Assembly (NCBI GenBank): GCA_017525035.1
Contig: JAFXTH010000017.1
Location: forward strand, 1 to 42,447
Direction: 5' to 3'
Origin: Bacilli bacterium
GTDB taxonomy: Bacteria > Bacillota_I > Bacilli_A > RF39 > UBA660
DNA: 42,447 nucleotides
Part shown: one piece after another, positions 7,181-22,826 of the stretch
Layout: every line of letters starts with the position of its first letter
How positions within the stretch are numbered: the first letter of the stretch is position 1
Notes under the pieces: model-generated
Told to the model about the DNA's origin: nothing
What the model saw: the letters and a program-made list of their open reading frames with translations, nothing else
The model's database searches: none
Program-made: the position numbers and the translations under genes

Positions 7181-7189
7181 TTAAGCAAT

Positions 7190-7407
7190 TACTTTGATGT
7201 TGAGGAGTATATTAGAAATGTTTCAAAGAGAGTTAGTGGTAGGTGAGAACTAACAACTATCTAATAGAAGGTAGCAACTGAGTAGAATCTCTAAGTAAAT
7301 AGGAGATTTCCGTTATCTTGCGTTAAAAGATTGAGTGTGTAGAATTTTTCTACAAAATAAGGTGGTACCGCGATAACTCGTCCTTAGTTTTAAGGATGAG
7401 TTTTTTT
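7190..7407 (+). promoter_or_regulatory. T-box riboswitch, Val (GTA specifier)
   Basis: This leader would switch valS transcription by sensing uncharged tRNA-Val. Stem I has a lower helix 7199-7202 with 7275-7278, an internal loop with AGTA on its 5' side and GAAGGTAG on its 3' side, and an upper helix 7211-7215 with 7261-7265. The AGAGAG ... GGTAGGTGAGA apical elements lie at about 7227-7250. The specifier is GTA 7271-7273, followed by a purine. A Stem III-like hairpin (AATCTC/GAGATT) follows. The T-box sequence AAGGTGGTACCGCG is at 7359-7372. It competes with a 12-pair terminator (7375-7386 with 7391-7402) and its T run. Confidence 0.93.
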
Positions 7408-7431: not shown

Positions 7432-9849
7432 ATGTTAGATAAGAAGTACAACATACAAGAAAAAGAAGAAAAATGGATGAATTATTGGGATGAGAATAAG
7501 ATCTATGAATTTAAACCAGATAAAAGGGAGATATATTCAATAGATACACCTCCACCAACAGTTAATGGAAAAATACATATTGGTCATATTTTCTCTTATA
7601 GTCAAGCTGAAATGATTGCTAGATATAGAAGATTAAGAAACTATAATGTTTTCTACCCATTTGGATTCGATGATAATGGACTTCCTAGTGAAAGACTAGT
7701 GGAAAAAGAACAAGGAAAGAAAGCTCATGAAATAGGTAGAGAAGAATTCAATAGATTATGTTTTGAAACTACTGATAAGTATGAAGCAGAGTTTAAGAAG
7801 TTATTTAAGAGAACTGGATTTAGCGCAGCTATTGATACTGCTTATAAAACAGTTAATAAATCTTCTCAAAAGATTAGCCAATTATCTTTCATTGAACTAG
7901 TTGAAAAAGGAGCTTGTTATCATAAAGAAAGTCCTGCATTATGGTGTAATGAATGTTTAACTTCAATAGCACAAGCAGAACTTGAAACAAAGACAATCAA
8001 AACACAATTCAACTATTTAAATTATGAAACAACTGATGGTGAAACATTTACTATTGCTACAACAAGACCAGAATTAATTCCAGCAATTGTGTGTGTATTT
8101 GTAAATCCAAAGGATCCAAAGCATAAACATTTAATTGGTAAAACTGCTCATATTCCTGTAATAGATGAAGAAGTTCCAATCTTAGCAGATGATAAAGTTG
8201 CAATCGACAAAGGTACTGGTGTAGTTATGTGCTGTACTTTCGGAGATCAAACAGATATTGAATGGTGGAAGAAATATAACTTACCACTTAAAAATATATT
8301 TACTGAAGACGGAAGAATTGTTGATTCAGTTAAAAACTATGGTGGATTAAAGATTAAAGAAGCAAGAGCTAAAATAATCGAAGACTTTAAAGAAACTGGA
8401 TATTTAGTAAAACAAGAAGAATTAGAGCATGAAGTTCAAACACATGAAAGATGTGGTAAAGAAGTTGAATATTCAGTTATGAATCAATGGTTCATCGATA
8501 TTATGAATCACAAAGATGAGTTCTTAAAGCTTGGTAATGAAATAAAATGGTATCCAAAACACATGCAAGCAAGATATAACGAATGGGTTAATAATGTTGC
8601 ATGGGATTGGTGTATTTCAAGACAAAGATATTTTGGAGTACCATTCCCAGTTTGGTATTGTAAAGATTGTGGTAAAGTAATTATTGCTGATAGATCACAA
8701 CTTCCAGTTAATCCATTAACTGACAAGCCATTAATTAAGAAATGTGAATGTGGATGTACTGAGTTTGTTCCAGAAAAAGATATTATGGATACTTGGCAAA
8801 CTTCAAGTGTAACACCACTACTTAACATGAGATATAAAGAAAAAGATTCATTAGAAGATTTACTAAAACCTATGACATTAAGATGCAATGCTCATGATAT
8901 TATTAGAACATGGGATTTCTACAGTATAGTTAAGAGTTACTATAACTTTGGAATGAGACCATGGAATGATGTAATGATCTCTGGATTTGTTATGGCAAAT
9001 AAAGGAGAGAAAATATCAAAGAGTAAGAGTAACTCTAAGATGGAACCATTTGAATTATTAAATGAATATGGTGCTGATGTTGTTAGATATTGGGCTGGTT
9101 CTGGTAAGTTGGGAACAGATATCGTATTTAACGAAGAAACTTTCTTAAGAGGTAAGAAACTTGTTAACAAGATTTGGAATGTATCTAAATTTGTTGAAAT
9201 GCACTTACAAGATTATAAAGATAAAAAGTTTGATGATTATGAATATGTTGATAAATGGATTTTAGGAAGCTTCCAAGAAATGGAAAAAGGATATATTAAA
9301 TATCTTGATGACTATGAAATTGGACTTGCACTTAACCATTTAGAGAAATTCTTCTGGAACTTCTGTGATAACTATATCGAAATAGTTAAACATAGATTAT
9401 ATAGACCTGAAGAATTTGGAGAAAAAGCTAGATACTCTGGTCAAAAGACAGTTTATACAATCTTATATAAATTATTACAAGACTTCAGTATTTACTTCCC
9501 ATTCATAACAGAAGAAATTTATCAAGAATTATATCATGATAATAAATCAATTCACTTAACTGTTATTAAACCATTTGAATTTGATTTTGCTAAAGAAGTA
9601 AAGAATGGTGACTTAATGGTTGATATCATTTCTCAAGCAAGAGGAGAAAAGACAATTAATAATGTTTCATTAAAGACTCCAATTAAAAATCTTGAAGTAA
9701 GTGTTAGTGAAGATTTAGAAGATGCAATTAATAAATCTATCAAAGATTTCAAAGCTACTTTATTTATTGAAAATCTTAAGTTAAACAAGGCTAAAGGAGC
9801 TCATAAGATAGACAAGATTGAATTAGATATGGAAGCAATAGAAAAATAA
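7432..9849 (+). CDS. valS: Valyl-tRNA synthetase 1 (T-box controlled copy)
   Basis: A class I synthetase charging tRNA-Val, 805 residues from ATG 7432, which sits nine bases after AAAGGAG; the in-frame ATG 7423 abuts that site. It has PPPTVNGKIHIGH (HIGH motif), a CP1 editing domain with IATTRPE and GTGVVMCCTFGDQTD, zinc-binding Cys pairs (WCNEC; CKDC ... CECGC), WDWCISRQRYFGVPFPVW, and KGEKISKSKSN (KMSKS motif). The KMSKS extension is SKSKSN where the usual form is SKSKGN. The length and motifs resemble the short archaeal-type ValRS. The C-terminus lacks the long coiled coil of typical bacterial ValRS. A close paralogue lies 10.5 kb downstream. Confidence 0.95.
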   Translation: MLDKKYNIQEKEEKWMNYWDENKIYEFKPDKREIYSIDTPPPTVNGKIHIGHIFSYSQAEMIARYRRLRNYNVFYPFGFDDNGLPSERLVEKEQGKKAHEIGREEFNRLCFETTDKYEAEFKKLFKRTGFSAAIDTAYKTVNKSSQKISQLSFIELVEKGACYHKESPALWCNECLTSIAQAELETKTIKTQFNYLNYETTDGETFTIATTRPELIPAIVCVFVNPKDPKHKHLIGKTAHIPVIDEEVPILADDKVAIDKGTGVVMCCTFGDQTDIEWWKKYNLPLKNIFTEDGRIVDSVKNYGGLKIKEARAKIIEDFKETGYLVKQEELEHEVQTHERCGKEVEYSVMNQWFIDIMNHKDEFLKLGNEIKWYPKHMQARYNEWVNNVAWDWCISRQRYFGVPFPVWYCKDCGKVIIADRSQLPVNPLTDKPLIKKCECGCTEFVPEKDIMDTWQTSSVTPLLNMRYKEKDSLEDLLKPMTLRCNAHDIIRTWDFYSIVKSYYNFGMRPWNDVMISGFVMANKGEKISKSKSNSKMEPFELLNEYGADVVRYWAGSGKLGTDIVFNEETFLRGKKLVNKIWNVSKFVEMHLQDYKDKKFDDYEYVDKWILGSFQEMEKGYIKYLDDYEIGLALNHLEKFFWNFCDNYIEIVKHRLYRPEEFGEKARYSGQKTVYTILYKLLQDFSIYFPFITEEIYQELYHDNKSIHLTVIKPFEFDFAKEVKNGDLMVDIISQARGEKTINNVSLKTPIKNLEVSVSEDLEDAINKSIKDFKATLFIENLKLNKAKGAHKIDKIELDMEAIEK

Positions 9850-9877: not shown

Positions 9878-9906
9878 TTGACAAACAGTATAAAGGTAAC
9901 TAAAAT
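9878..9906 (+). promoter_or_regulatory. Strong sigma-A promoter of the biosynthetic operon
   Basis: A consensus TTGACA (9878-9883), exactly 17 bases, then TAAAAT (9901-9906). It starts 28 bases after the valS stop. Transcription from about 9913 would give a short leader carrying the Cys-rich ORF and a terminator before the first radical SAM gene. Confidence 0.87.
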
Positions 9907-9937
9907 TAGGTTTAATTATATAAAAAAGAGGTCACGT

Positions 9938-10063
9938 ATGATTAGATTTATGATTTTCTTGATAAAATATAATTTGTTTAGTTGCTGCTGCTTATGCTGC
10001 TGCTTTAAATATGTCTATTCATGCTGTGTGAAAAAAAATAAGACAAACTGCGTTGCGCGATAG
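9938..10063 (+). CDS. Cys-rich 41-residue leader peptide or small precursor peptide
   Basis: ATG 9938 lies six bases after AAGAGGT. The peptide starts MIRFMIFLIKYNLF, then has CCCLCCC, a CC pair and a final Cys: nine Cys in 41 residues, eight encoded by TGC. It begins only about 25 bases after the predicted transcription start. Its last seven codons form the 5' arm of the following terminator, with the TAG stop in the loop. That layout favours a regulatory leader sensing Cys-tRNA. A RiPP-type precursor or a Cys-rich membrane peptide are alternatives, since radical SAM and ATP-grasp genes follow. The in-frame TTG at 9878 is part of the -35 box and is not a start. Confidence 0.65.
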   Translation: MIRFMIFLIKYNLFSCCCLCCCFKYVYSCCVKKNKTNCVAR

Positions 10064-10087
10064 TGCGTTTTGCGGTTTGTCTTTTTT
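10041..10087 (+). terminator. Terminator/attenuator overlapping the leader ORF
   Basis: AGACAAACTGC (10041-10051) pairs with GCGGTTTGTCT (10072-10082, one G-U), followed by T. A small inner helix (10055-10058 with 10063-10066) closes the loop that holds the leader stop codon TAG (10061-10063). A ribosome finishing the leader would cover the 5' arm. An alternative pairing of the 5' arm with TTTGTTT at 9973-9979 is possible but weak. Confidence 0.8.
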
Positions 10088-10126: not shown

Positions 10127-10990
10127 ATGTACGAGTATACTGGTAAGAATGTAATCTTAATGCTTTGCTCAAAATGTAACATCAAATGCAAACACTGCTA
10201 TATCAAATATAAAGGAGATTTTGAAGTTGATAAGTTAGATTCATTATTCAATGCAATCAAAGATAAACACTTCATAATACTTAATGGTACAGAGCCGATA
10301 CTTTTTGAAGAGTATTATCACATATATAAAGAAAATAAACAGACTAGAATATTAACTAATGGTTTAGAGTTAATTAGAAATCCTGGACTTTATAAAACTT
10401 TAAAAGATATTGGTATAGAAGAAATAGCTCTTTCATATCACTTCGGAATGCAAGATGATATATCATTTGTTAAAAGTAGTATGTTAGATAAATTAATTAA
10501 AGATTTAACTAAGAATGGTTTCAAAGTTAAATTAATGACTACTGTATCAAGTGATAATTATAAGAACATTCCAAACATGTGTAAGATGGCACACAAGCTT
10601 GGTGCTAAAACAATAAAGTTTACTAATTACATATTCCAAGGAAATGCTCAAAACCAAGAACATAATAAAGTCTTAACAAGAGAACAAATCGATTATGTTT
10701 TAGATACGATAGATGAATGTAGAAAAGATTATGATAAAGATGATTTATACATTGAAAGATGTGGAACATTTGGACCGAATAGAAAAAGAAAAGAAAAGTT
10801 TGAATGTCTTGCATGTAATAACACAGTAGTAATTACACCAGATTTAAATGTTTATAGATGTGTATTTGATATCGATAAAGGAAATGAAATTGGAAAAGTA
10901 ATTGATAACAAGATAATGATCTATGATGAATTTAAAGACGCTGATACATCTACTTGTGCGGTACTTAAAAAATATAATGGAGTTGAATAA
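10127..10990 (+). CDS. Radical SAM/SPASM-type enzyme, first gene of the operon
   Basis: The protein has 287 residues. The [4Fe-4S]-SAM motif CxxxCxxC is C17-C21-C24, at the normal N-terminal position, followed by a partial TIM barrel (LNGTEPILF as the GGEP-like strand). The C-terminal region carries extra Cys residues (CGTFG, FECLACNN, YRCVF, TCAVL) as in SPASM or twitch domains that bind auxiliary clusters and often act on peptides or amino acids. Reaction and substrate are unknown. ATG 10127 follows AGAAGG. It starts 40 bases after the attenuator and is followed one base later by the next gene. Confidence 0.88.
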   Translation: MYEYTGKNVILMLCSKCNIKCKHCYIKYKGDFEVDKLDSLFNAIKDKHFIILNGTEPILFEEYYHIYKENKQTRILTNGLELIRNPGLYKTLKDIGIEEIALSYHFGMQDDISFVKSSMLDKLIKDLTKNGFKVKLMTTVSSDNYKNIPNMCKMAHKLGAKTIKFTNYIFQGNAQNQEHNKVLTREQIDYVLDTIDECRKDYDKDDLYIERCGTFGPNRKRKEKFECLACNNTVVITPDLNVYRCVFDIDKGNEIGKVIDNKIMIYDEFKDADTSTCAVLKKYNGVE

Positions 10991-10991
10991 T

Positions 10992-11687
10992 ATGAAAAAA
11001 CCAGTAATAGGAATTATATCCAATGAAGATTATATTGATAAAGCAATATATAAAAAGAAAGTATATGATGTAAATGCTGATTACATAAAAATGATCAGTG
11101 ATAATAATGGAATACCAGTAATAATACCAGCAGTTACAAATATAAAAGAATGTGAAAGCCTTCTAAAAACAATTGATGGATTATTATTAATCGGTGGAGT
11201 AGATATTACAAAAGAGTGTTACACAAAAAAGAAAATAAAAGATGCAAGAGATAAATTAGAAATAGAAGTATATAAATATTTTAGAAAACAGCATAAGCCT
11301 ATCTTAGGAATTTGTAGAGGATTACAATTAATAAATGTCGCAGAAGGCGGAAGCCTAAAGAACATTAAAAATTCTAAAATAAATCATTTCATAGAAGAAG
11401 ATGGATGGGTAAATCATCACTATATAACTATTAGTGAAGATTCTAAGATATACAAAATAATAAAAGAAAAAGAATATGCAGTATCTTCAGTACATCATCA
11501 ACAAATAGATAAGTTAGGAAAGAATATTAAAGTCACCGCCAAATCTAGTGATGGTGTAATTGAAGCAATTGAATCAAAAGATAATGACTTTGTTATAGCA
11601 TTCCAAGGACATATAGAAAAATGTTTAAAGAATTTTAATAAATATAATAAAGTGATAGAGGAATTTATAAAGGAGGCTAGGAAATGA
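10992..11687 (+). CDS. Class I glutamine amidotransferase-like gamma-glutamyl hydrolase (C26/PuuD-like)
   Basis: The protein has 231 residues from ATG 10992; the earlier in-frame start at 10923 lies inside the upstream gene. It begins KPVIGIISN, has DGLLLIGGVDI, the nucleophile elbow GICRG (Cys), SSVHHQQ, and FQGHIEK where the family usually has QWHPE (His-Glu of the triad). PuuD-type enzymes cleave gamma-glutamyl amide bonds. Beside a glutamate-cysteine ligase-like enzyme, it plausibly removes a gamma-glutamyl protecting group from an intermediate. It overlaps the next gene by four bases (ATGA). Confidence 0.87.
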   Translation: MKKPVIGIISNEDYIDKAIYKKKVYDVNADYIKMISDNNGIPVIIPAVTNIKECESLLKTIDGLLLIGGVDITKECYTKKKIKDARDKLEIEVYKYFRKQHKPILGICRGLQLINVAEGGSLKNIKNSKINHFIEEDGWVNHHYITISEDSKIYKIIKEKEYAVSSVHHQQIDKLGKNIKVTAKSSDGVIEAIESKDNDFVIAFQGHIEKCLKNFNKYNKVIEEFIKEARK

Positions 11688-12826
11688 AAAAAGAAGATTA
11701 TTTAAAACTACCAATCTACAAGAATCAAAAAGGAAAATATTTAGTAAAGCAAGATATTGTAAATAATTTTCCACATAATTTTAATATTAAAGATAATGGA
11801 AATTATGAGTATGCTACAACTTCTGGAACTACTTCAGATAGAATGGAAATAATAAGAAAACCGAACTGGTGGCAAGATGAATATAAAAGAACATATTCAA
11901 ATGATGAAAAGCTAAATAAATGCTTTAATGAAAAGCTTCATAAGATTATATTCACAACAGCCCAGTGTTCAAATCTTGTGTGCTTCGTTGAAAAGCCTTC
12001 AATGGAAAAAAGAACAATAGGTAATACGTTATATGTTAATAATACTTTTAATCCATGGGATTGGACAAAAGATAACATAAATGAAATAGTTAATGAAATT
12101 AACTTATTCAAACCATATTACTTAGATGCAGATCCAGTATATTTATCAATATTCTTATACTTAAAAGATAAATATAAAATAAAAACTAAATTACATGTAC
12201 CAGAAATAATAACATTAAGTTATGAATTTGTTACAAAAAATACAAGAGATTATATTTCAAAGAAGTTAAAAACAGATATTAGAAATTTATACGGTACTAC
12301 AGAATTTGGATATGCTTTCTTAGAAAATAAAGATGGAAAAATGGCTGTATGTAAAGATTTACTAGATGTAGATTTATTACCAGTAAATAAGAAGAATCAT
12401 ATATATTCGTTAATAATTGATAGCTACAAAAATGAATATATGCCACTTATAAATTACAAAGTTGGTGATTTAGTAGAAGCAACTGATGAAGAAGTTAAAA
12501 ACTTCAAAAAAGATAAAGTAGTAACAAGAATGGCAGGAAGAGAAAAAGATGTTTTAGACGAAAAGATTTCATTCTCAATGCTAGATAACTTAATAAATAA
12601 AGTATCAGATAGAATATTACTATATCAGTTCTACTTTATAAACAAAGATATTTGTAGTTTAAAATATATTACTTTAGATAATAAAGAATTAAGTGAAAAA
12701 GAAAAGAAAGAAATAATAAAAGAATTAAAAGAAATAGATATCAATTATGATATTACCTTTAATCTAGTAGAGGAAATATCACCAGAAATGTCAGGTAAGT
12801 TTACTATAGTTAAAAGACAAATATAA
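11684..12826 (+). CDS. PaaK-like adenylate-forming enzyme
   Basis: The protein has 380 residues and resembles phenylacetate-CoA ligase-type (COG1541) enzymes. It shows the phosphate-binding loop ATTSGTTSDRM near residue 46, LYGTTEFGYAF near 205 (YGxTE motif), a GREKDVL motif near 285 (ATP/ribose binding) and a C-terminal SGKFTIVKR with the likely catalytic Lys. It would activate a carboxylate as an acyl-adenylate for transfer to a thiol or amine. It is shorter than true PaaK (about 430), so the acceptor may differ. No carrier protein is seen nearby. Overlapping ATGA coupling ties it to the C26 gene. Confidence 0.85.
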   Translation: MKKEDYLKLPIYKNQKGKYLVKQDIVNNFPHNFNIKDNGNYEYATTSGTTSDRMEIIRKPNWWQDEYKRTYSNDEKLNKCFNEKLHKIIFTTAQCSNLVCFVEKPSMEKRTIGNTLYVNNTFNPWDWTKDNINEIVNEINLFKPYYLDADPVYLSIFLYLKDKYKIKTKLHVPEIITLSYEFVTKNTRDYISKKLKTDIRNLYGTTEFGYAFLENKDGKMAVCKDLLDVDLLPVNKKNHIYSLIIDSYKNEYMPLINYKVGDLVEATDEEVKNFKKDKVVTRMAGREKDVLDEKISFSMLDNLINKVSDRILLYQFYFINKDICSLKYITLDNKELSEKEKKEIIKELKEIDINYDITFNLVEEISPEMSGKFTIVKRQI

Positions 12827-12839
12827 TTTGGAGGAGTTT

Positions 12840-14015
12840 ATGGAAGATAAAATTAGAAAAGATTTCCCAATGTTAGATAGCAATATAGTTTATTTCGACA
12901 ATGCATCTACTTCTTTAAAACCAAATGAAGTAATTAAATCTGTTGAAGATTTTTATACAAAACATACTTCAAATGCTTATAGAGGTAGTTATATAAATTC
13001 AGAACTTATATCACTTAAGATTGATGAATGTCGTGAATTAGTAGCAACGATGATTAATTCATCATCAAGAGAAGTAATATTTACATCTGGTTGTACTGAT
13101 TCAATAAATCAGTTAGTTAAGATGTTAAATATAAAAAAGAAAGATAACGTTGTATGTTCATTGCTAGAACATCATTCTAACTATCTCCCTTGGTTGAATA
13201 GTAGTAATTTAACAGTTGTAGGACTAGATAAAAATGGTGTAGTTGATCTAAAAGAATTAGAAAGTATTCTTAAAAATAACAAGATCAAAATAGTTACTGT
13301 AACAGCATTATCAAATGTTACTGGTAATGTTCAACCAGTTAAAGAAATATGCAAATTAGCTCATAAATATGGAGCACTTGCAATGATTGATTGTTGTCAA
13401 TATGCACCACATTTTAGAATAGATGTTAAAGATATCGATTGTGATTTCTTAGCACTTTCAGCACATAAGATGTGTGGACCCAGTGGACTAGGAGTTCTAT
13501 ATGGTAAGAAAGAATTATTACTAAAGTGTAATAAATCAAAATATGGTGGTGGAATGGTTGATAGAATAGTAGATTCTACAAACGTAAGATATAAAGAAAT
13601 TCCTTATTGTTTCGAAGCAGGAACACCTGCAATAGAAAATATCTTAGGATATGCTAGTGCAATAAGATATTACTTAGGTGTAGGATTTGAAAATATATCA
13701 AAGAAAAATAAAGAACTAGAAGATTACTTTAAAAAGAAAATAGATAAGAGTAAGAATATCAAAATGATATTCCCAATATCTAAAAATCATGCCCCAATAT
13801 TTACATTCAAATTAAATAGAGATTTAAATTTAAATTATGTAGCAAAGATATTATCTGATTCAGCAAATATATGCGTATCAAGCGGATATCAATGTTGCCA
13901 GCCTTTATATAACACAATTGGTGAAAAAGGTGGAATAAGAGTATCACTACAATTTTATAATACAAAAAAAGAAATAGATTATTTTATAGAAAAAATAGAG
14001 AACTTAAAAATATAA
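12840..14015 (+). CDS. SufS/CsdA-like class V PLP enzyme (cysteine desulfurase family)
   Basis: The protein has 391 residues from ATG 12840, four bases after GGAGGAG; a TTG at 12828 precedes that site. It contains YFDNAST, FTSGCTDSINQL, LLEHHSNYLPW, IDCCQYAPH and the PLP-binding Lys in ALSAHKMCGPSG. The C-terminal half has EAGTPAIENILGYA and VSSGYQCCQPLYNTIG, where a Cys sits at the SufS active-site position. The family removes sulfur from cysteine or performs related C-S cleavage. It has no SufU or IscU partner here, so it may serve the pathway rather than general Fe-S assembly. It lies 13 bases after the PaaK-like gene. Confidence 0.9.
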   Translation: MEDKIRKDFPMLDSNIVYFDNASTSLKPNEVIKSVEDFYTKHTSNAYRGSYINSELISLKIDECRELVATMINSSSREVIFTSGCTDSINQLVKMLNIKKKDNVVCSLLEHHSNYLPWLNSSNLTVVGLDKNGVVDLKELESILKNNKIKIVTVTALSNVTGNVQPVKEICKLAHKYGALAMIDCCQYAPHFRIDVKDIDCDFLALSAHKMCGPSGLGVLYGKKELLLKCNKSKYGGGMVDRIVDSTNVRYKEIPYCFEAGTPAIENILGYASAIRYYLGVGFENISKKNKELEDYFKKKIDKSKNIKMIFPISKNHAPIFTFKLNRDLNLNYVAKILSDSANICVSSGYQCCQPLYNTIGEKGGIRVSLQFYNTKKEIDYFIEKIENLKI

Positions 14016-14030
14016 TATGGGAGGTTTATT

Positions 14031-14990
14031 ATGAGTCATAAGTTATCAGTAGGATTTAATGGAGATCTAGATTTATTAGATAGAATGTTTGAAGATGAAG
14101 AGAATAAAATAGGAACACTTTATACAGGTGGTTATTTAAAAGATGTTAGTAGTGGAAGATTTCAACATAGTGAAAGTAGAAAGTCACTTGAGAAAATAGT
14201 TGATGGAGTACATGATAAGGGTGCAAGGTTAGCAGTAACTTTAAATTCACCTTGTGGAGTACCACCAAAAAGCGAAACAGAATGGTGGCAAAATGTTGAA
14301 ACATACTTAAAAGAACTTGAAGCAATGGGAGTAGATACAGCAATAATAGCTCATCCATTCATTATCGATTTAGCAAAACAAAAAACAGATATGACAGTAG
14401 CAGCATCAATAATTTGCGATGTTAATACACCAAGAGGTGCTCGCTACTATGAAGATATGGGAGCAGATATCATCGTACCATCTTCATCAATTAACTATGA
14501 TATAGATACACTTGAGAAAATTAAAGCAAACCTACAAAGAGCAAAAATAGTATTACTTGCTAATGAAGCTTGTTTAGGAAACTGTCCATGGAGAAGATTC
14601 CATCAAAACGCTTTATCACATGCTGATAGAAAAGGTTATGATGTTGATTATGCTATGAGTTGTACTGGTTTATATACAAAAGAACCTCATATGATGCTAA
14701 CAAATAATGTTATAAGACCAGAAGATTTAGATAAATATAAAGAAATTACAGATATGTTCAAATTAGTAGGAAGAACTACTGATGATGAAACATTATTAAA
14801 AATGATACATGCTTATTCAACTGGTGAATATCATGGTAACTTAGTAGATATAGTAGATAAAGGATTTAGTCAATTTATAAACCTTCCAAATGATAAATTA
14901 GATGGTTTGTATGAACAAAAAACAAATTGTGATAAAAATTGTCAAACATGTAATAAATGTAAAAGATTATATAAGAGTATAAATAGTTAG
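14031..14990 (+). CDS. U32 family Fe-S protein (peptidase U32-like)
   Basis: The protein has 319 residues with a TIM-barrel-type U32 domain. The Cys motif is NEACLGNCPWRRFHQNALSH with a later MSCTG; the C-terminus adds CDKNCQTCNKC. Despite the name, well-studied U32 members (UbiU/UbiV, RlhA, TrhP) are Fe-S proteins acting in O2-independent hydroxylation, with prephenate as oxygen source; that is family knowledge. The four or more Cys fit a cluster here. The substrate is unknown. ATG 14031 follows GGAGG, and the gene lies 15 bases after the PLP gene and 13 before the next radical SAM gene. Confidence 0.85.
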   Translation: MSHKLSVGFNGDLDLLDRMFEDEENKIGTLYTGGYLKDVSSGRFQHSESRKSLEKIVDGVHDKGARLAVTLNSPCGVPPKSETEWWQNVETYLKELEAMGVDTAIIAHPFIIDLAKQKTDMTVAASIICDVNTPRGARYYEDMGADIIVPSSSINYDIDTLEKIKANLQRAKIVLLANEACLGNCPWRRFHQNALSHADRKGYDVDYAMSCTGLYTKEPHMMLTNNVIRPEDLDKYKEITDMFKLVGRTTDDETLLKMIHAYSTGEYHGNLVDIVDKGFSQFINLPNDKLDGLYEQKTNCDKNCQTCNKCKRLYKSINS

Positions 14991-15003
14991 TGGGGGAATT
15001 TAT

Positions 15004-15861
15004 ATGGAAAGACTTTTAAACTTAGAAGCAACATCTTTCTGTAATGCAAATTGCAGTATGTGTCCAAGAGACTGTGTTAAAGAATTTGGATACTTATCTT
15101 TAGAAACAGTTGATATGCTGATTGATAAAGTAAAAGATATAGCTCTTTTTGAAATATCTCTTTCAGGAAGAGGAGAACCAACTTTTCATCCAAAATTGGT
15201 TGAAATAGTAGAAAAATTAAGAGAATTAAAAACAAAGATTTCAGTAGTTACTACAAGTGATGGATTAAATGCAAGAAACTATAAAGAGATAGTTGATAGC
15301 CTTGATATTTTAAGATTATCAGTAAGTTCAATTGATCCAGCTACATTTAGAAAAGTACATAGAGGTTTAGAGTATAGAAAGATTTGGGATAATATACAAA
15401 GACTTGTATCATATGATCCTGAAAAACTTCATATACACTTAGTTGGAGGAGAAGATACTTATCCACAACTTGAACCAACTATTAAGTTCTTTAAAGATCA
15501 TGGAGTAAATAATATATTCTTATTTCCACTTTGGAATAGAGGAGGAAATGTAGAAGAACAAGAAATACTTGATATTAGAAAGAAACTAGTAGAAGAGTAT
15601 GGAGTATTCTATTCAGAAGATGAATACTTAGATGAAGATAAAGTAAGACAACTTGGTAATCCAAACTATTGTCCTATTGGAGATACTAGTATCTCAGTTA
15701 ACTTCAAAGGTGATATGATTGGATGCTTCCAAGACTTTGAAAATAAAACAAAGATATGCAATGTTAGAGATGACGTTGATTTCTTAAAAGAAAGAGCTAA
15801 AATGCTTAAAAAAATGCCTGTGTGCATGAGTTGTAATTCTGCAAAACAAGCAAGAAGGTAG
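15004..15861 (+). CDS. Second radical SAM enzyme with C-terminal auxiliary Cys cluster
   Basis: The protein has 285 residues. CxxxCxxC is C13-C17-C20 (SFCNANCSMC), followed by the SLSGRGEPTFHP strand (GGEP-like motif). The C-terminal region has NYCPIGDTS, GCFQDF, ICN and PVCMSC, a SPASM-like set of Cys for auxiliary clusters. The short 20-residue lead to the cluster motif and the SPASM-like tail resemble peptide- or amino-acid-modifying enzymes. It is not a close copy of the operon's first radical SAM protein. The start is ATG 15004 after GTGGGGG. Confidence 0.88.
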   Translation: MERLLNLEATSFCNANCSMCPRDCVKEFGYLSLETVDMLIDKVKDIALFEISLSGRGEPTFHPKLVEIVEKLRELKTKISVVTTSDGLNARNYKEIVDSLDILRLSVSSIDPATFRKVHRGLEYRKIWDNIQRLVSYDPEKLHIHLVGGEDTYPQLEPTIKFFKDHGVNNIFLFPLWNRGGNVEEQEILDIRKKLVEEYGVFYSEDEYLDEDKVRQLGNPNYCPIGDTSISVNFKGDMIGCFQDFENKTKICNVRDDVDFLKERAKMLKKMPVCMSCNSAKQARR

Positions 15862-15867
15862 GTTATT

Positions 15868-17511
15868 ATGAAAATATTATTACTATCAGGATTAGGTCCT
15901 TCCTGGCCACAAGGTAGTGCTTTCTATAATAGTAATATGTTAGAGCATACCTTCTTAGATAAAGAATGTTACCACGAAGGATTAAAAAGAAATATTTCTA
16001 AAAAGGACTTTTATATCTATGATTCTAATGGAGATGAAAAGAGCTTATTTAGAGAAAGAAATGGAATAGAGAAAAATCTTACTACACTTACCCTGGAAGG
16101 GATATTAAATGATTGTGATTGTGAGTATGAATATTTAGATTTAGAAAAAGTCTGGAATAACTTCGATTATCAAAATGGCGATGATATAGATTATATATTT
16201 TTATCAACAACATTTATATGTAATCTAAGTGACTTGAATTATGCTATTAACTGGTGCAAACAAAATTTACCTGGAAAGAAGATTATCGTTGGAGGGCAAT
16301 TCAGTAATTTAAAATATAAAAAGATATTAGAAGAATTTGGTGACATATTATACGTAATGAGAGGAGACGGAGAAATAGCAATCCCTGCATTACTAGATTA
16401 TTTAAACCATAAACAAGACGATATTAGTAAAGTTCCAAATCTTGTATGGAGAAATGGTGATGAAGTAGTATCAAACGAAGTTAAGATGGTTGATGTTAAT
16501 ACAGTTCCAGCTATTAAACTAGATGGACATGTAGATAACATGTATTATGAATCAATGCGAGGATGTGCATTTGGATGTAAGTTCTGTTCATTTCCAGCAG
16601 CATCACCTAAATGGCGTTACAAATCAGCACAAAAAATTGCCGATGATTGGTTATATTACAGTGATGCTTTTGGAGTAAAAAGAATGAGGGCAATGGATTC
16701 AGCATTTACATTTCCTCCAAAAAGATTACAAGAATTATTGGAATTATTAAAAGATAAAGGTATCGAATGGGAAGCTTATTCAAGAGCAGATGTTATAAAT
16801 TCTAAAGAAGTTATCGAAGCATTAGAAGACGCTAACTGTAGATTATTATCATTTGGTTTTGAATCACTTTCAGATGATACATTAAAAAAAATGAACAAAA
16901 GGGTAACAGCAGAGCAAAACAGAAAAACAAATGAATTATTAAATAAGTATGCTAAAAAGCTAGATTATAGGTGTTCATTCATAGTAGGTTTTCCTGGTGA
17001 AACCCCGGAAGAGTATCAAAAAACACATGATTTCTTAGTAAATGAATACAAAAAGCAATTTCATCTTAGTGTATTTTCACTAGTAGATGAAACAATGCCT
17101 ATATGGCAAGAAGCCGAAAAATATGGCTTAGAAGTTACGGATCCAAACAATCCTGACTATAATTGGAAACATAAGGGGATGACTGCAGAGGAAGCAAGAA
17201 AGCTTCATCAGCAAACATTGTATGACGTTAGGTGGAAAAACGAATTTGCAGTTGGAACAGAATGGCAATTACCATTTGATTTACCACTTAATCCAAACTT
17301 AGACTTTACGAAAAATTATAGAATTGAAAAATTAATAGAAAGGCTTGCTTTTGTTACAAAAGATTTTAAGGGAAACCAAGAACTAATTGATGCTATTACA
17401 GAGAGTGTTGTTCAAGAACTATCTACTCTTGGAGTTCATATAAAAGGATTTAGTTACAACAAAGAAGAAAGATCTAATAACAAAGCATTAGTGAAATCTG
17501 ATGAAAAATGA
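15868..17511 (+). CDS. B12-binding-domain radical SAM enzyme
   Basis: The protein has 547 residues. The N-terminal 200 residues form a cobalamin-binding-like Rossmann region (MKILLLSGLGPSWP, then KKIIVGGQFSNL), without the DxHxxG histidine, as is common in this class. The radical SAM motif is C233-C237-C240 (RGCAFGCKFC). FIVGFPGETPEEY and FGFESLSDDTLKKM are typical of this family. Members include methylases and ring-forming or hydroxylating enzymes, so the reaction cannot be assigned. Its 3' end overlaps the next gene by 11 bases. Confidence 0.9.
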   Translation: MKILLLSGLGPSWPQGSAFYNSNMLEHTFLDKECYHEGLKRNISKKDFYIYDSNGDEKSLFRERNGIEKNLTTLTLEGILNDCDCEYEYLDLEKVWNNFDYQNGDDIDYIFLSTTFICNLSDLNYAINWCKQNLPGKKIIVGGQFSNLKYKKILEEFGDILYVMRGDGEIAIPALLDYLNHKQDDISKVPNLVWRNGDEVVSNEVKMVDVNTVPAIKLDGHVDNMYYESMRGCAFGCKFCSFPAASPKWRYKSAQKIADDWLYYSDAFGVKRMRAMDSAFTFPPKRLQELLELLKDKGIEWEAYSRADVINSKEVIEALEDANCRLLSFGFESLSDDTLKKMNKRVTAEQNRKTNELLNKYAKKLDYRCSFIVGFPGETPEEYQKTHDFLVNEYKKQFHLSVFSLVDETMPIWQEAEKYGLEVTDPNNPDYNWKHKGMTAEEARKLHQQTLYDVRWKNEFAVGTEWQLPFDLPLNPNLDFTKNYRIEKLIERLAFVTKDFKGNQELIDAITESVVQELSTLGVHIKGFSYNKEERSNNKALVKSDEK

Positions 17512-18634
17512 GAAAGATTATTTAGATAAACACTTTTTTGATAAAGTAAATAAAAGTGATTATGTTGGCGTCGAAATAGAAATGCCAATAGTGAATTTAA
17601 CTTATCCACATAAAGTGGATATGAAAATTATTCAAAAATTATTCTTATTCTTTTTAAGCGATGATTTTGAAACTAGTAGTTATGATAATGAAAATAATAT
17701 TATTGCAATAAAGAATACTAAAAATGGAGATACTATTTCTTTAGAGTATTCAGTTAATACTTTAGAGTTTTCTTTAAATAAAGAATTAAGTATCTACAGA
17801 TTAAAAGATAAGTTTTTTAACTATTATGATAAGACAAATACTTTCTTAAAAATCTATAATTATAAATTACATGATGGTGGAATTAATCCATATTATAGAA
17901 AGATTGATAGAGAGTGTTTAAATCAAAATAGATATAGAGCTATTGAAAGATTATTAAATAATAAATATAATAAACTTTTGTCTCAATTTTGTGCATATTG
18001 TTGCAGCATTCAAACTCATGTGAATGTTTCAGTAGATAACTTAGTGAATGTAATGAATATGTTTACAAGAATAGAAGATAAAAAATCTAAGATATTTGGT
18101 AACTCTTATATGGATGAAGTTAATTTAAAAAACTCAAGAAGCTATATATGGGGTAAATGTAATTTTGGGCCATTAAACAATGGAAAAAATAGAATCTATA
18201 AAGACCTTAATGATCTTAAGAATGATTATTTAAATAGAAATTTATTCTATGTAGAAAGAAATGGTAAATATTTATTATTTAATGAAAAACAAAGATTAAG
18301 TAAATATTTAGATAATAAAGAAATTGATGCAACTGATGAGAAGTTGAAACCAGTAAAAGTGAAACCTAATATTAATGATTTAGATAATTTTAGATCATAT
18401 AAAAGTGTTGAACTAACTAGATATGGAACACTTGAAATCAGAACAGATTGTACTCAAAAAATAAATAATATTTTTAAGGTAGTAGCATTCAATGTTGGAG
18501 TAAGTAAGAAGAGTAGTGAAATCTTAAAATACTTAAGAGAACATAAATCAATTAGTAATAAAAAACTATTTGAATATGCTATTAAAGGATTAAAAGAAAG
18601 AAACAAAGATGAAGAAGAATTAATGGCGGTGTAG
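17501..18634 (+). CDS. Glutamate-cysteine ligase-like (GCS2/EgtA-type) enzyme
   Basis: The protein has 377 residues and shows the motifs of ATP-dependent carboxylate-amine ligases: YVGVEIEMP near residue 21 (the GxExE Mg/ATP site), DTISLEYSVNTLEFSL, SIQTHVNVSV (Gln-x-His substrate loop) and RYGTLEIRTDCT. Known members join the gamma-carboxyl of Glu to Cys or another amine. Sequence identity to any characterised member is clearly low, so Cys as acceptor is only a guess supported by the Cys-rich leader. It is followed one base later by the ATP-grasp gene, as gshA-gshB-type pairs often are. Confidence 0.78.
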   Translation: MKNEKDYLDKHFFDKVNKSDYVGVEIEMPIVNLTYPHKVDMKIIQKLFLFFLSDDFETSSYDNENNIIAIKNTKNGDTISLEYSVNTLEFSLNKELSIYRLKDKFFNYYDKTNTFLKIYNYKLHDGGINPYYRKIDRECLNQNRYRAIERLLNNKYNKLLSQFCAYCCSIQTHVNVSVDNLVNVMNMFTRIEDKKSKIFGNSYMDEVNLKNSRSYIWGKCNFGPLNNGKNRIYKDLNDLKNDYLNRNLFYVERNGKYLLFNEKQRLSKYLDNKEIDATDEKLKPVKVKPNINDLDNFRSYKSVELTRYGTLEIRTDCTQKINNIFKVVAFNVGVSKKSSEILKYLREHKSISNKKLFEYAIKGLKERNKDEEELMAV

Positions 18635-18635
18635 T

Positions 18636-19577
18636 ATGAAAAAAGTTGGTATATGGATGTATGAAAATGATGGCGGAATAAATATCAAAAAGAAACTTGT
18701 ATCAAGTCTTAAGAAAAAAGGCTATGAAGTATATGCAGATTTTGATATGAGAGAGTGCTATCTAAAAGATGGTAAAGTATATGCCAAAGATGGTTACTGT
18801 TTATCAGATGTAGATATCTTCTATCATATGAATGCTGATGAACAAAACCAATATCAAAATGACATATTAAGACTTTTAGAATTATCTGGTGTACATGTAT
18901 TTAATAACTACCAAGCATTTATCTATTGTAAAGATAAAGTAATTGCAAATCTTTTACTTAGAAAAAATGGAATAAATGTACCTCCATCAATGCTTATTAA
19001 TAATAAACTTTCTAAAGAAGAATTAAAACATATAATTGATGAATGGAAAAGTGTTGTAGTAAAGCCTCGTACTAATCATGGTGGAAAAGGAATAATCAAA
19101 TTTGATGATTATGAGCAATTCAGTGATTATTATGAATCAAGTAAGCATTATGTAGATAATTACTATTTAGAAAAATATATTCCATTTGATAAACATGACT
19201 ATAGAGTTGAAATATTTAATGGAGAAGTTGTAGGTACTTATTGTAGAGGTAAGTGTGGAAGTTATAAAACAAATATCTCTTCAGGAGGATCAATGATTGA
19301 TTCTAAAGTATCTAAAGAGTTTCAAGAAATAGCACTTAAATGTGCTAAAACATTAGGGATAACTACAACTATAGTAGATATGATTTTATCTAGTAAAGAT
19401 AAGAAAATCTATGTATTAGAAGTTAATCCTATAATGGGGATATTCTTAGAATCAGCAATGAAATCTGGTAGTAAGATGCCAGTGCAAAAAGATATTCCAG
19501 ATGCATTTAAAACAGATGCAATAAAGTTAAATAAAATAATTGAATATATAGATTTATATTTTAAAAAAGTGGGGTGA
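18636..19577 (+). CDS. RimK/GshB-like ATP-grasp ligase
   Basis: The protein has 313 residues. An N-terminal pre-ATP-grasp Rossmann domain (MKKVGIWMYEND) is followed by FNNYQAFIYCKDKVIANLLL, VVVKPRTNHGGKGI (Lys and Gly-rich loop), YLEKYIPFDKHDYRVEIFNGEVV and the Mg ligands in VLEVNPIMG. The family forms amide bonds through acyl-phosphates, for example adding amino acids to a carboxylate. Next to the GCL-like gene, it may extend or amidate a gamma-glutamyl intermediate. Start ATG 18636 has a GGCGGTG site. It is five bases from the DAHP synthase gene. Confidence 0.85.
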   Translation: MKKVGIWMYENDGGINIKKKLVSSLKKKGYEVYADFDMRECYLKDGKVYAKDGYCLSDVDIFYHMNADEQNQYQNDILRLLELSGVHVFNNYQAFIYCKDKVIANLLLRKNGINVPPSMLINNKLSKEELKHIIDEWKSVVVKPRTNHGGKGIIKFDDYEQFSDYYESSKHYVDNYYLEKYIPFDKHDYRVEIFNGEVVGTYCRGKCGSYKTNISSGGSMIDSKVSKEFQEIALKCAKTLGITTTIVDMILSSKDKKIYVLEVNPIMGIFLESAMKSGSKMPVQKDIPDAFKTDAIKLNKIIEYIDLYFKKVG

Positions 19578-19582
19578 TTTAG

Positions 19583-20320
19583 ATGGGAAAAGATGATTTT
19601 ATTTTCATTGCAGGTCCATGTGCAGTTGAATCAGAAGATCAAATAGTAAGAATTGCTAAGCAGTTAAAAGAACTAGGTGTTGATTATTTAAGAGGTGGAG
19701 TATTTAAGCCACGTACTAGTCCAAAAAGTTTTCAAGGACTACAAGAAGAAGGACTTGAATATTTGTTAAGAGCTAAAGAAGAAACTGGCTTACCAATAAT
19801 TACTGAATTATTAACAATAGATCAAGTTAAAAAATATGCAGACTTTGTTGATATAATTCAAATTGGAAGTAGAAATATGTACAATTACGAATTACTTAAA
19901 GAAGTAGGTAAAACAAATAAAAAAGTAGTATTAAAAAGAGGTTTATCTGCTACATTTGGAGAATGGCTTGGAGCAGCTGAATATATAAAACAAGGTGGAA
20001 ATGAAGATATAGTACTTTGTGAAAGAGGAATAAGAGGATTTGATAATGCTACTCGTAATGTGCTTGATTTACAAGCGGTTCCATATATTCACAATAATAC
20101 TGAATATCCTATAATTGTTGATCCTAGCCATGCAGCTGGAAATAGATATATGATTGAGCCAATGAGCCTTGCAGCTACAGCAGCAGGAGCAGATGGATTG
20201 ATGATAGAAGTTCATGATAGACCAGATGAATCAATGTGTGATAGATCACAAGCAATCAATATAGAACAAGTAAGTAATATATATAATAAAGTTAAAACCT
20301 TAAGAAAGGTAATGAAATAA
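19583..20320 (+). CDS. aroF: 3-Deoxy-7-phosphoheptulonate synthase, short AroA-beta/KDO8P-like type
   Basis: The protein has 245 residues. It shows GPCAVES near residue 10, LRGGVFKPRTSPKSFQG, VLKRGLSATFGEWLGAAEYI, VLCERGIRGFD and IIVDPSHAAGNRYM, the PEP and metal-site motifs of the short DAHP synthases. It lacks ACT and chorismate-mutase regulatory domains. The reaction joins PEP and erythrose-4-phosphate at the entry to the shikimate pathway; no other shikimate gene lies in the window. Here it may supply an aromatic or prephenate-type precursor to the operon. KDO8P synthase is a less likely reading because of KPRTS. It is last in the operon and no terminator follows. Confidence 0.88.
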   Translation: MGKDDFIFIAGPCAVESEDQIVRIAKQLKELGVDYLRGGVFKPRTSPKSFQGLQEEGLEYLLRAKEETGLPIITELLTIDQVKKYADFVDIIQIGSRNMYNYELLKEVGKTNKKVVLKRGLSATFGEWLGAAEYIKQGGNEDIVLCERGIRGFDNATRNVLDLQAVPYIHNNTEYPIIVDPSHAAGNRYMIEPMSLAATAAGADGLMIEVHDRPDESMCDRSQAINIEQVSNIYNKVKTLRKVMK

Positions 20321-20359: not shown

Positions 20360-20387
20360 ATAAAGCAATTTTAGAGGGGGAATAATG

Positions 20388-22826
20388 ATGTTGGATAAAA
20401 AGTATAGCTTTGGTAGTGCGGAAAAAGAAATGCAAGAGTTGTGGAATGAGAAAGGTGCCTATAAATTTAAGGGAGTAGACGATAGAAAAATATATTCTGT
20501 TGATACTCCACCACCTACAGTAAGTGGTAAATTACATATAGGACATATATTTTCCTTTACTCAAGCAGAAATGGCAGTTCGATATCACAGATTATTAGGA
20601 GAAAATGTATATTATCCTTTTGGATTTGATGATAATGGATTACCTACAGAAAGACTAGTAGAAAAAGAAGAAGGAATATTTGCAAAAGATTTACCTAGAA
20701 GTGAATTTATTGACAAATGTAACTTAACAAAAGATAAATATATTAAAGAATTTAAAGATTTATTTCAAAGAGTTGGTATAAGTGCAGATTGGGATTTAGG
20801 GTATGATACTATTAATGAACTATCAAGAAAAGTATCACAAAGATCTTTTATTGATTTAGTTAATAAAGGAAAAGCATATCGAAAAGAAATGCCAGTGTTA
20901 TGGTGCCCATGTTGTCAAACTTCTATCGCACAAGCTGAACTTGATGATAAAGAAATTGATTCATATTTTAACTACATTAATTTCGATGTAGAAGGTAAGA
21001 AGATTGAAATTGCTACAACAAGACCTGAATTTTTAGGTGGTTGTGTTGCTATATTTGTTAATCCAGATGATGAAAGATATAAAGATTTAATTGGTAAGGA
21101 AGCAACTGTACCTTTATATAATAATAAGGTAAAAATAATTGGTGATTCTAAAGTATCTATGGATAAAGGTACTGGTATTGTTATGTGCTGTACTTTTGGT
21201 GATCAAACAGATATGGAATGGCAAAAAGAATACAATTTACCAATTAAGAAAGTTATAGAACCAGATGGAACAATTAATAAAGATGTTCCAATAGTTGGTG
21301 GCATGAATACACTTGACGCTAGAATGAAAATAGTTGAGGAATTAAATAATAAAGGACTATTAGTAAAGAGTGAAAAAATAAAACATACAGTTAATACTCA
21401 TGAAAGATGTGGAAATGAAATAGAAATAATTAATTCTCCACAATGGTATATAGATATATTAAGTATCAAAGATGAGTTAATAAAAGCTGCTGATGAAATT
21501 AATTGGCATCCAGAAACAATGAAAAAGAGATATTTGGATTGGGTTAACAATCTAAAATGGGATTGGTGTATTTCAAGACAAAGATATTTTGGAGTACCTT
21601 TTCCTGTATGGTATTGTAAAGAGTGTGGAGAAGTAATGATTCCAGATGATAAAGACTTACCAGTTGATCCACTTAAAAATGTTCCTAACAAAACTTGTAA
21701 ATGTGGATGCAAAGAATTTGTTCCAGAATCAGCTGTAATGGATACTTGGGCTACTTCTTCAGTATCACCACTTATTAATAAGAAATATGGTGAATCTGAT
21801 GAAAGGGATTACTTATATCCAATGAGTATGAGAAGCCATGCTCATGAAATAATTAGAACATGGACATTCTATTCAATAGTTAAAGGGTTATATCATTTAG
21901 GACAAGTACCATGGAAGAACTTGATGATTTCTGGTTTCGTTCTTGCTAAAAAAGGTGAGAAGATCAGTAAGTCTAAAGGTAATGCTAAGATGTCACCTAA
22001 TGAATTATTAGATACTTATGGTGCAGATATGATTAGATACTGGACAAGTTCTAATAAATTAGGAACAGATACTTGGTTTGATCCTACTGATGTAGAATCA
22101 TCAAGAAGATTTATGACAAAATTATGGAATTCAGCAAGATTTGTAGAAATGCAAACTGCCAATTTTGATCCTAATGAAGAAGTTGAATTAACTTCAATAG
22201 ATAAATGGATAGTATCTAAATGTCATGAAACATTTGAAAGATATAAAGCTCAAATGGATAAATATGAAATAGGAATGGCAAGAGGAGAAATAGACAATTT
22301 CTTCTGGAGAGATTTCTGTGATTATTATTTAGAGATTGCTAAAGAAAGATTATATAATCAAGATAATAAATATGGAGATAAACAAAAATCAGCTCAAAAA
22401 GCTTTATCAATGGTTTTCTTAGAAGTATTAAAAATGTATTCACCATTTGTACCACATATAACTGAAAAAATATATCAAGAGTTATATAAAGGAAAAGAAA
22501 AAGGGGAAACATTATGTAACAGTACTTATAAAGAGTTACCATATTATGATGGAACAGTTGAATTTGGTGAAGCTGTTAAAGATGTTGTATCTACAGTAAG
22601 AAAATATAAAACTGATAGAAATCAATCTATGAAAGAAAGAATTGGAATTTTAAATATTGGAATGACACAAGAAAACTTAGAATTCTTAAAAGATTCAATA
22701 ATGGATATTAAGAGTTGCACTAGCGCTGATGATATTAATGTTAGTGTAAGTGATGAAACAACAATTAATATTCCAACACCAGAAGTAGAAAAAGGACAAA
22801 TGTTAGTTAAAGAAACAGGAAAATAA
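20388..22826 (+). CDS. valS: Valyl-tRNA synthetase 2 (second full-length copy)
   Basis: The protein has 812 residues, a paralogue of ValRS-1 along its whole length (same MLDKKY start, PPPTVSGKLHIGH, IATTRPEFLGG, GTGIVMCCTFGDQTD, WDWCISRQRYFGVPFPVW, CKCGC zinc ligands). Its KMSKS motif is KISKSKGN, the usual form, unlike the SKSN of copy 1. ATG 20388 is seven bases after GAGGGGG; ATG 20385 is also possible. The C-terminal 100 residues are the least similar part. It looks catalytically complete. Its position directly after a biosynthetic operon, constitutive-looking promoter and lack of T-box suggest a specialised or resistance copy, which is an inference. Confidence 0.93.
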   Translation: MLDKKYSFGSAEKEMQELWNEKGAYKFKGVDDRKIYSVDTPPPTVSGKLHIGHIFSFTQAEMAVRYHRLLGENVYYPFGFDDNGLPTERLVEKEEGIFAKDLPRSEFIDKCNLTKDKYIKEFKDLFQRVGISADWDLGYDTINELSRKVSQRSFIDLVNKGKAYRKEMPVLWCPCCQTSIAQAELDDKEIDSYFNYINFDVEGKKIEIATTRPEFLGGCVAIFVNPDDERYKDLIGKEATVPLYNNKVKIIGDSKVSMDKGTGIVMCCTFGDQTDMEWQKEYNLPIKKVIEPDGTINKDVPIVGGMNTLDARMKIVEELNNKGLLVKSEKIKHTVNTHERCGNEIEIINSPQWYIDILSIKDELIKAADEINWHPETMKKRYLDWVNNLKWDWCISRQRYFGVPFPVWYCKECGEVMIPDDKDLPVDPLKNVPNKTCKCGCKEFVPESAVMDTWATSSVSPLINKKYGESDERDYLYPMSMRSHAHEIIRTWTFYSIVKGLYHLGQVPWKNLMISGFVLAKKGEKISKSKGNAKMSPNELLDTYGADMIRYWTSSNKLGTDTWFDPTDVESSRRFMTKLWNSARFVEMQTANFDPNEEVELTSIDKWIVSKCHETFERYKAQMDKYEIGMARGEIDNFFWRDFCDYYLEIAKERLYNQDNKYGDKQKSAQKALSMVFLEVLKMYSPFVPHITEKIYQELYKGKEKGETLCNSTYKELPYYDGTVEFGEAVKDVVSTVRKYKTDRNQSMKERIGILNIGMTQENLEFLKDSIMDIKSCTSADDINVSVSDETTINIPTPEVEKGQMLVKETGK

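Follow-up and report, generated by a model that had tools for sequence, protein, structure and literature searches.

A cysteine-codon-rich leader ORF ending in a terminator: a candidate translation-gated attenuator before a radical-SAM operon in an uncultured Bacilli bacterium

Between the valyl-tRNA synthetase gene valS1 and a ten-gene operon of an uncultured bacterium, a short open reading frame crowded with cysteine codons runs into an intrinsic terminator. Does this ORF control the operon, and if so, what does it sense and with which sign? The window analysed here, a stretch of 42,447 nt, is one contig (C5) of a 1.25 Mb genome with 27% GC and 88% completeness; named relatives of the source bacterium are mostly MAGs labelled Bacilli. 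The leader is probably a ribosome-dependent attenuator of some kind. That it is gated by cysteine supply, with the operon on when cysteine is plentiful, is the modelled version that we favour, with little more than even confidence.

Anatomy of the leader and its cysteine codons

The gap between valS1 and the operon holds, in order, a near-consensus promoter, a ribosome binding site (RBS), a 41-codon ORF and a terminator (Table 1). The ORF encodes MIRFMIFLIKYNLFSCCCLCCCFKYVYSCCVKKNKTNCVAR, with nine Cys residues. Its codons 35–39 form the 5′ arm of the terminator (AAGACAAACTGCG), and its stop codon overlaps the apical GATA loop. The initial annotation had described a 41-codon ORF with a good RBS and nine Cys codons, six of them in a seven-codon run, as well as a terminator whose 5′ arm is the 3′ end of the ORF and whose loop contains the stop; all of this is borne out by the sequence. 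Folding of the whole leader gave a z-score of −4.4. No Rfam covariance model, for a T-box or any other known element, matched the leader. The sole match in the window was the T-box before valS1, so that the source organism also uses tRNA-sensing riboswitches.

Table 1. Coordinates of the features discussed (window positions unless a locus is named).
Feature	Position	Strand	Remarks
T-box leader	7185-7388		before valS1; Rfam 139.7 bits
valS1	stop at 9849		upstream neighbour of the leader region
Sigma-70-type promoter, TTGACA-17 nt-TAAAAT	9878..9906	+	11/12 consensus matches, in a kind of scan that also returns chance matches; begins 28 bases past the valS1 stop
RBS, AGAGGT	9927..9932	+	5 bases ahead of the ATG; read from sequence
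Leader ORF	9938..10063	+	41 codons; stop TAG 10061-10063
Codons 16-22, CCCLCCC	9983..10003	+	proposed cysteine sensor
Further Cys codons	10022-10027 and 10049-10051	+	
Intrinsic terminator	10040..10087	+	hairpin 10040-10083; T6/U-tract 10082-10087; 5′ arm 10040-10052 within the ORF
Operon, ten genes	10127..20320	+	presumed controlled
valS2, second valyl-tRNA synthetase	20385..22826	+	also adjoins homologous clusters
Leader ORF in L068/L069, conserved	L068:8180-8500, L069:9560-9900	-	before MetK-like gene

Chance is a poor explanation for the leader ORF. In dinucleotide shuffles of the sequence upstream of the fixed hairpin, an equally long ORF with ATG and RBS ending in the hairpin arose in 1 of 2000 trials. 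A first genome scan of 526 hairpin terminators returned 10 ORFs that end inside one and have a gene downstream; of the other overlaps, several seem spurious and at least two are ordinary small genes, for L32 and a cold-shock protein. A second scan leaves out the window leader, apparently through its 70-codon limit on the open frame.

The cysteine content is far above the genomic background: Cys makes up 1.1% of residues in the 901 predicted genes, and the probability of at least nine among 41 is 6e-10. TGC accounts for eight of the nine leader Cys codons versus 21% of Cys codons genome-wide (P = 2e-5). The density of six in seven is the joint highest among all mechanically called ORFs of this genome with 15 codons or more, and the run reads (TGC)3 TTA (TGC)3, a repeat-like pattern. 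When the pattern TGY3-N3-TGY3 was searched in 386 genomes of the family, none of the 30 loci read proved to be a leader with an RBS and an end in a terminator; many of them resemble coding sequence read in another frame.

Folding around the ribosome and the proposed mechanism

According to the computed folds, a ribosome on codons 16–30 leaves the entire hairpin in free RNA (−24 to −27 kcal/mol), and a ribosome at codon 34 or later leaves at most 8 kcal/mol of it. For an antiterminator, transcripts were ended before the 3′ arm and the probability that the 5′ arm is paired upstream was calculated for each stall position. It was 0.02–0.11 at the tested Cys stalls, with the exception of codon 22 (0.40). 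The his-type control, a His-codon leader in a relative's locus (MKFRIKNINKVHHHF; L077:12932-13120), precedes a HisRS/HisZ-like gene and has a predicted antiterminator and terminator; the corresponding value was 0.65 at two of its three His codons and, as modelled, it is a classical attenuator.

The window leader has the single-amino-acid codon run of trp/his-type attenuators (six of seven codons are Cys), but an antiterminator is not predicted upon stalls at codons 16–21 of that run (0.03–0.11), codon 22 being the exception. Two other properties are those of the pyrBI/pil1 type: the ORF ends within the hairpin, inside the limit of about 27 nt, and by computation there is no competing antiterminator and a ribosome at the ORF end disrupts the hairpin. 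Because the 5′ arm has no upstream partner at most stalls, the ribosome itself is favoured as the antiterminator, and a delay at the Cys codons would then mean termination.

We propose that polymerase initiates at the promoter upstream of the ORF and makes the leader, on which a ribosome would load at 9938. With Cys-tRNA charged, the ribosome would pass the Cys codons and cover the 5′ arm (codons 34–42) with polymerase at the U-tract; no terminator would form, and the operon would be transcribed. With Cys-tRNA short, the ribosome would be held at codons 16–22 (or 29–30), the terminator would fold ahead of it and transcription would stop. The ribosome would thus act as the antiterminator, making an alternative RNA hairpin unnecessary. 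Cys38 lies within the stem, and a ribosome stalled there would act oppositely, opening the hairpin.

This reversed logic had been suggested in the initial annotation. It is favoured by the anatomy and by the lack of a predicted antiterminator at most stalls, as well as by the recurrence of leader/terminator heads described below; the mechanism itself comes from computation, and we infer translation of the ORF, timely arrival of the ribosome, cysteine as the signal and the sign of the response. RNA polymerase runs faster than ribosomes in B. subtilis (PMC13323073), and Bacilli can transcribe ahead of translation; in that case the ribosome would often be too late, which counts against the gate.

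The operon, its homologous clusters and their leaders

The operon begins with radical-SAM 1, followed by a C26 hydrolase, a phenylacetate-CoA-ligase-like gene, a SufS-like gene, U32 and radical-SAM 2; the genes after radical-SAM 2 are a B12 radical-SAM (PhpK-like), a carboxylate-amine-ligase-like, an ATP-grasp and a DAHP synthase gene. It is neither a cysteine-synthesis operon nor one that encodes the cognate tRNA synthetase, as trp/his-type control would have it. The idea that it consumes cysteine, also put forward earlier, is suggested by the SufS-like protein (a PLP enzyme), by a weak resemblance of the carboxylate-amine-ligase-like protein to carboxylate-amine and glutamate-cysteine ligases (E 0.02–0.09) and by the Fe-S radical-SAM enzymes. 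No match to cysE, cysK or rho was found in the 88%-complete genome, searched except for 72 kb of one contig. As cysE and cysK are not detectable, the organism probably imports cysteine, and gating an Fe-S, PLP-rich pathway on its supply would make sense.

Homologous clusters occur in four related genomes (G514, G583, G392 and G430); for G514 and G583, identity is 70–78% in most cluster proteins. In G392, G514 and G583 the cluster is followed by a ValRS 75–76% identical to valS2, compared with about 50% identity between valS1 and valS2. This high identity among clusters, together with the distance from valS1, makes valS2 look cluster-dedicated; it possibly provides self-resistance to a ValRS-directed product of the cluster. 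A SpoT/Rel-like gene in G011, G514, G583 and G392 is 70–85% identical to that of G514. The window cluster lacks this extra gene, and the match in its genome to the G514 protein is just 49% identical. Extra SpoT/Rel-like genes head or accompany the related clusters at L071:3404-4828, L177:6200-7642, L179 and L171. The G514 radical-SAM 1 gene (L177:7668-8138) has lost its middle, leaving a frame of 156 aa in an otherwise intact cluster. The CoA-ligase-like gene was not found in viral contigs.

Relatives of radical-SAM 1 mostly have no leader directly upstream; the recurrence becomes visible when operon heads are inspected. A leader ORF with a terminator, its stop in or near the hairpin, heads operons in G011 (twice), G514, G583 and G430. 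The G011 leaders precede spoT (MIAKNFYKHKFDMKRLFMEICFLVCSSLNIIVSKSEACQ) and radical-SAM 1 (MIAMINYKHKSKMRRLFIEICFLVCSSLNIFVSKSENCQ), each with the stop in the terminator loop. They are homologous, and changes in the stem preserve pairing, e.g., AAG/CTT versus AAA/TTT. In G514 (MRKERLISNNKILCVNLFVSLIFLCSICSLIK) and G583 (MRNKSLLSNNKIFLASKFVSLIFLCLFCFLIK) the leader precedes spoT and the stop lies a few bases ahead of the stem; the truncated G514 radical-SAM 1 follows spoT. The G392 contig starts inside spoT. The G430 leader (MVTKIIFTNKIVLVKLI) runs into the terminator before the C26 gene and contains no Cys. At two loci with radical-SAM 1 relatives (L068 and L069), the leader ORF is not Cys-enriched; its frame reads through the terminator in L068 and stops inside it in L069. 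The ORF is longer than in shuffles in every one of these leaders (G011 twice, G514, G583, G430 and L068/L069), and the promoter position is the same in related leaders.

Upstream pairing of the 5′ arm was 0.36–0.56 in the G011 leaders, stalled or unstalled, and 0.56–0.68 at one codon in the G514/G583 leaders, which makes the case against an antiterminator weaker there. A long-range helix between the leader start and the later Cys region was considered and rejected: z-scores of −3.8 and −4.6 in G514/G583 compare with −2.0 here, and pairing of the start in the window leader did not exceed that of shuffled sequences.

In the window and G011 leaders, no residue other than Cys is enriched at P < 0.05; in the G514 leader, Cys is one of two such residues. 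Most related leaders have two or three Cys codons, with a widely varying number across leaders. Within leader pairs, 7 of 8 Cys codons are kept versus about 75% of other codons, a non-significant difference. No direct orthologue of the window leader was found in the related clusters examined, and the window peptide showed no homology to other leader peptides above shuffles. Peptides of different clusters have no detectable common sequence, and in leader pairs silent changes are fewer than amino-acid changes. Judged from sequence, operon position and plan are common to the leaders, and the extreme Cys run appears particular to the source genome. Cysteine as the signal would rest on this run and on the two or three Cys codons of most related leaders. 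More tentatively, at clearly less than even confidence, a positive supply-gated attenuator may be a recurring head of radical-SAM/tRNA-synthetase-linked clusters in this uncultured Bacilli family.

Alternative readings and known systems

An alternative that we regard as unlikely, albeit the likeliest of the rivals, is ribosome arrest: a small molecule (the cluster product, or a drug directed at the ribosome or a tRNA synthetase) would stall the ribosome near the ORF end, over the 5′ arm, and switch the operon on, Cys being incidental. A ribosome halted at codon 38 or on the stop codon would indeed open the hairpin, a second ValRS accompanies the clusters, often together with an additional SpoT/Rel-like gene, and the G430 leader does without Cys. 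However, the six-Cys run lies upstream of the needed stall site and is left unexplained; given the differences of leader peptides across clusters and the excess of amino-acid over silent changes within pairs, no arrest motif is visible.

Classical attenuation, in which a Cys stall would favour an antiterminator and switch the operon on when cysteine is short, is less likely again. Cys-run leaders with such logic were proposed for cysS in Rhodobacterales (PMC8632094), the his-type leader of L077 follows the classical plan, and the codon-22 stall gives an upstream pairing of 0.40. At the other Cys stalls, however, there is little or no competing helix, hardly any space separates the last pre-stem Cys codons (10022-10027) from the stem at 10040, and the operon does not synthesise cysteine.

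Two further readings, on a par with each other, appear slightly less probable still. RiPP loci commonly have a Cys-rich peptide encoded directly 5′ of a radical-SAM gene, and the window ORF could be such a small gene, e.g., for the precursor on which the neighbouring radical-SAM enzyme acts, followed by a leaky terminator of its own; L32 is among the small genes that likewise end within their terminators. Against this, the peptide is not kept in homologous clusters: the leaders of G514 and G583, where identity in most cluster proteins is 70–78%, are unrelated to it, Cys-poor and placed before spoT, and a peptide immediately upstream is lacking in most radical-SAM 1 relatives. No precursor family matched, and the adjacent enzyme has 287 aa and no extra N-terminal domain. 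The combination named beforehand as the mark of a precursor, a conserved peptide with a cleavage motif, was looked for and neither part was found. In the other reading the leader responds to translation as such, and its Cys run is an expanded triplet repeat that takes no part in sensing. The repeat-like run, its TGC bias and the Cys-free G430 leader agree with this; three more Cys codons beyond the run, of which two are TGC, and the Cys enrichment of the G011 and G514 leaders in the absence of repeats do not. Cysteine sensing, general translation sensing and drug-induced arrest are not separated by the data. Rho-dependent (TnaC-like) termination was rejected, as no rho match was found in the genome portion searched.

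For the favoured cysteine-gated reading, the closest precedents are the pil1 leader of Streptococcus gallolyticus, in which the translating ribosome serves as antiterminator (PMC3894217), and E. coli pyrBI/pyrL. In both, as here, the leader-ORF stop lies in or beside an intrinsic terminator, and translation keeps the hairpin from forming, which switches the operon on. The input differs: in those systems it is a phase-variable number of repeats or polymerase pausing that depends on UTP, and in the window leader the proposed speed through the Cys run. Ribosomes affect terminators near stop codons in a distance-dependent manner, over about 27 nt (PMC4824070). In an artificial construct, a polyproline stall upstream of the ORF-overlapping pyrL terminator led to termination (PMC5021804), the same logic as proposed here, with proline/EF-P in place of Cys-tRNA supply.

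Adjacent Cys codons in a short ORF before an operon are also known from uORFC-8-2, which precedes cysS in Rhodobacterales with a terminator and at which a stalled ribosome is proposed to switch genes on (PMC8632094), and from cys-operon leaders of Mycobacterium and relatives, where no terminator was seen (PMC1262725). Unlike the window operon, these leaders precede genes for cysteine or Cys-tRNA. The combination of a Cys-codon run with reversed logic was not found in the open-access literature, where each is known apart.

The leader also points to natural-product-like clusters with their own ValRS in uncultured gut bacteria. If the proposal is true, ribosome–polymerase pacing would be used for regulation in a group that might be expected to show runaway transcription, and the leader would offer a simple test system. 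Trp/his-type attenuators likewise place a codon run in an ORF upstream of a terminator, but they possess a competing antiterminator and their sign is opposite; the window leader would then be a natural amino-acid-sensing attenuator of reversed sign, whose relatives known from the open-access literature are artificial or otherwise triggered.
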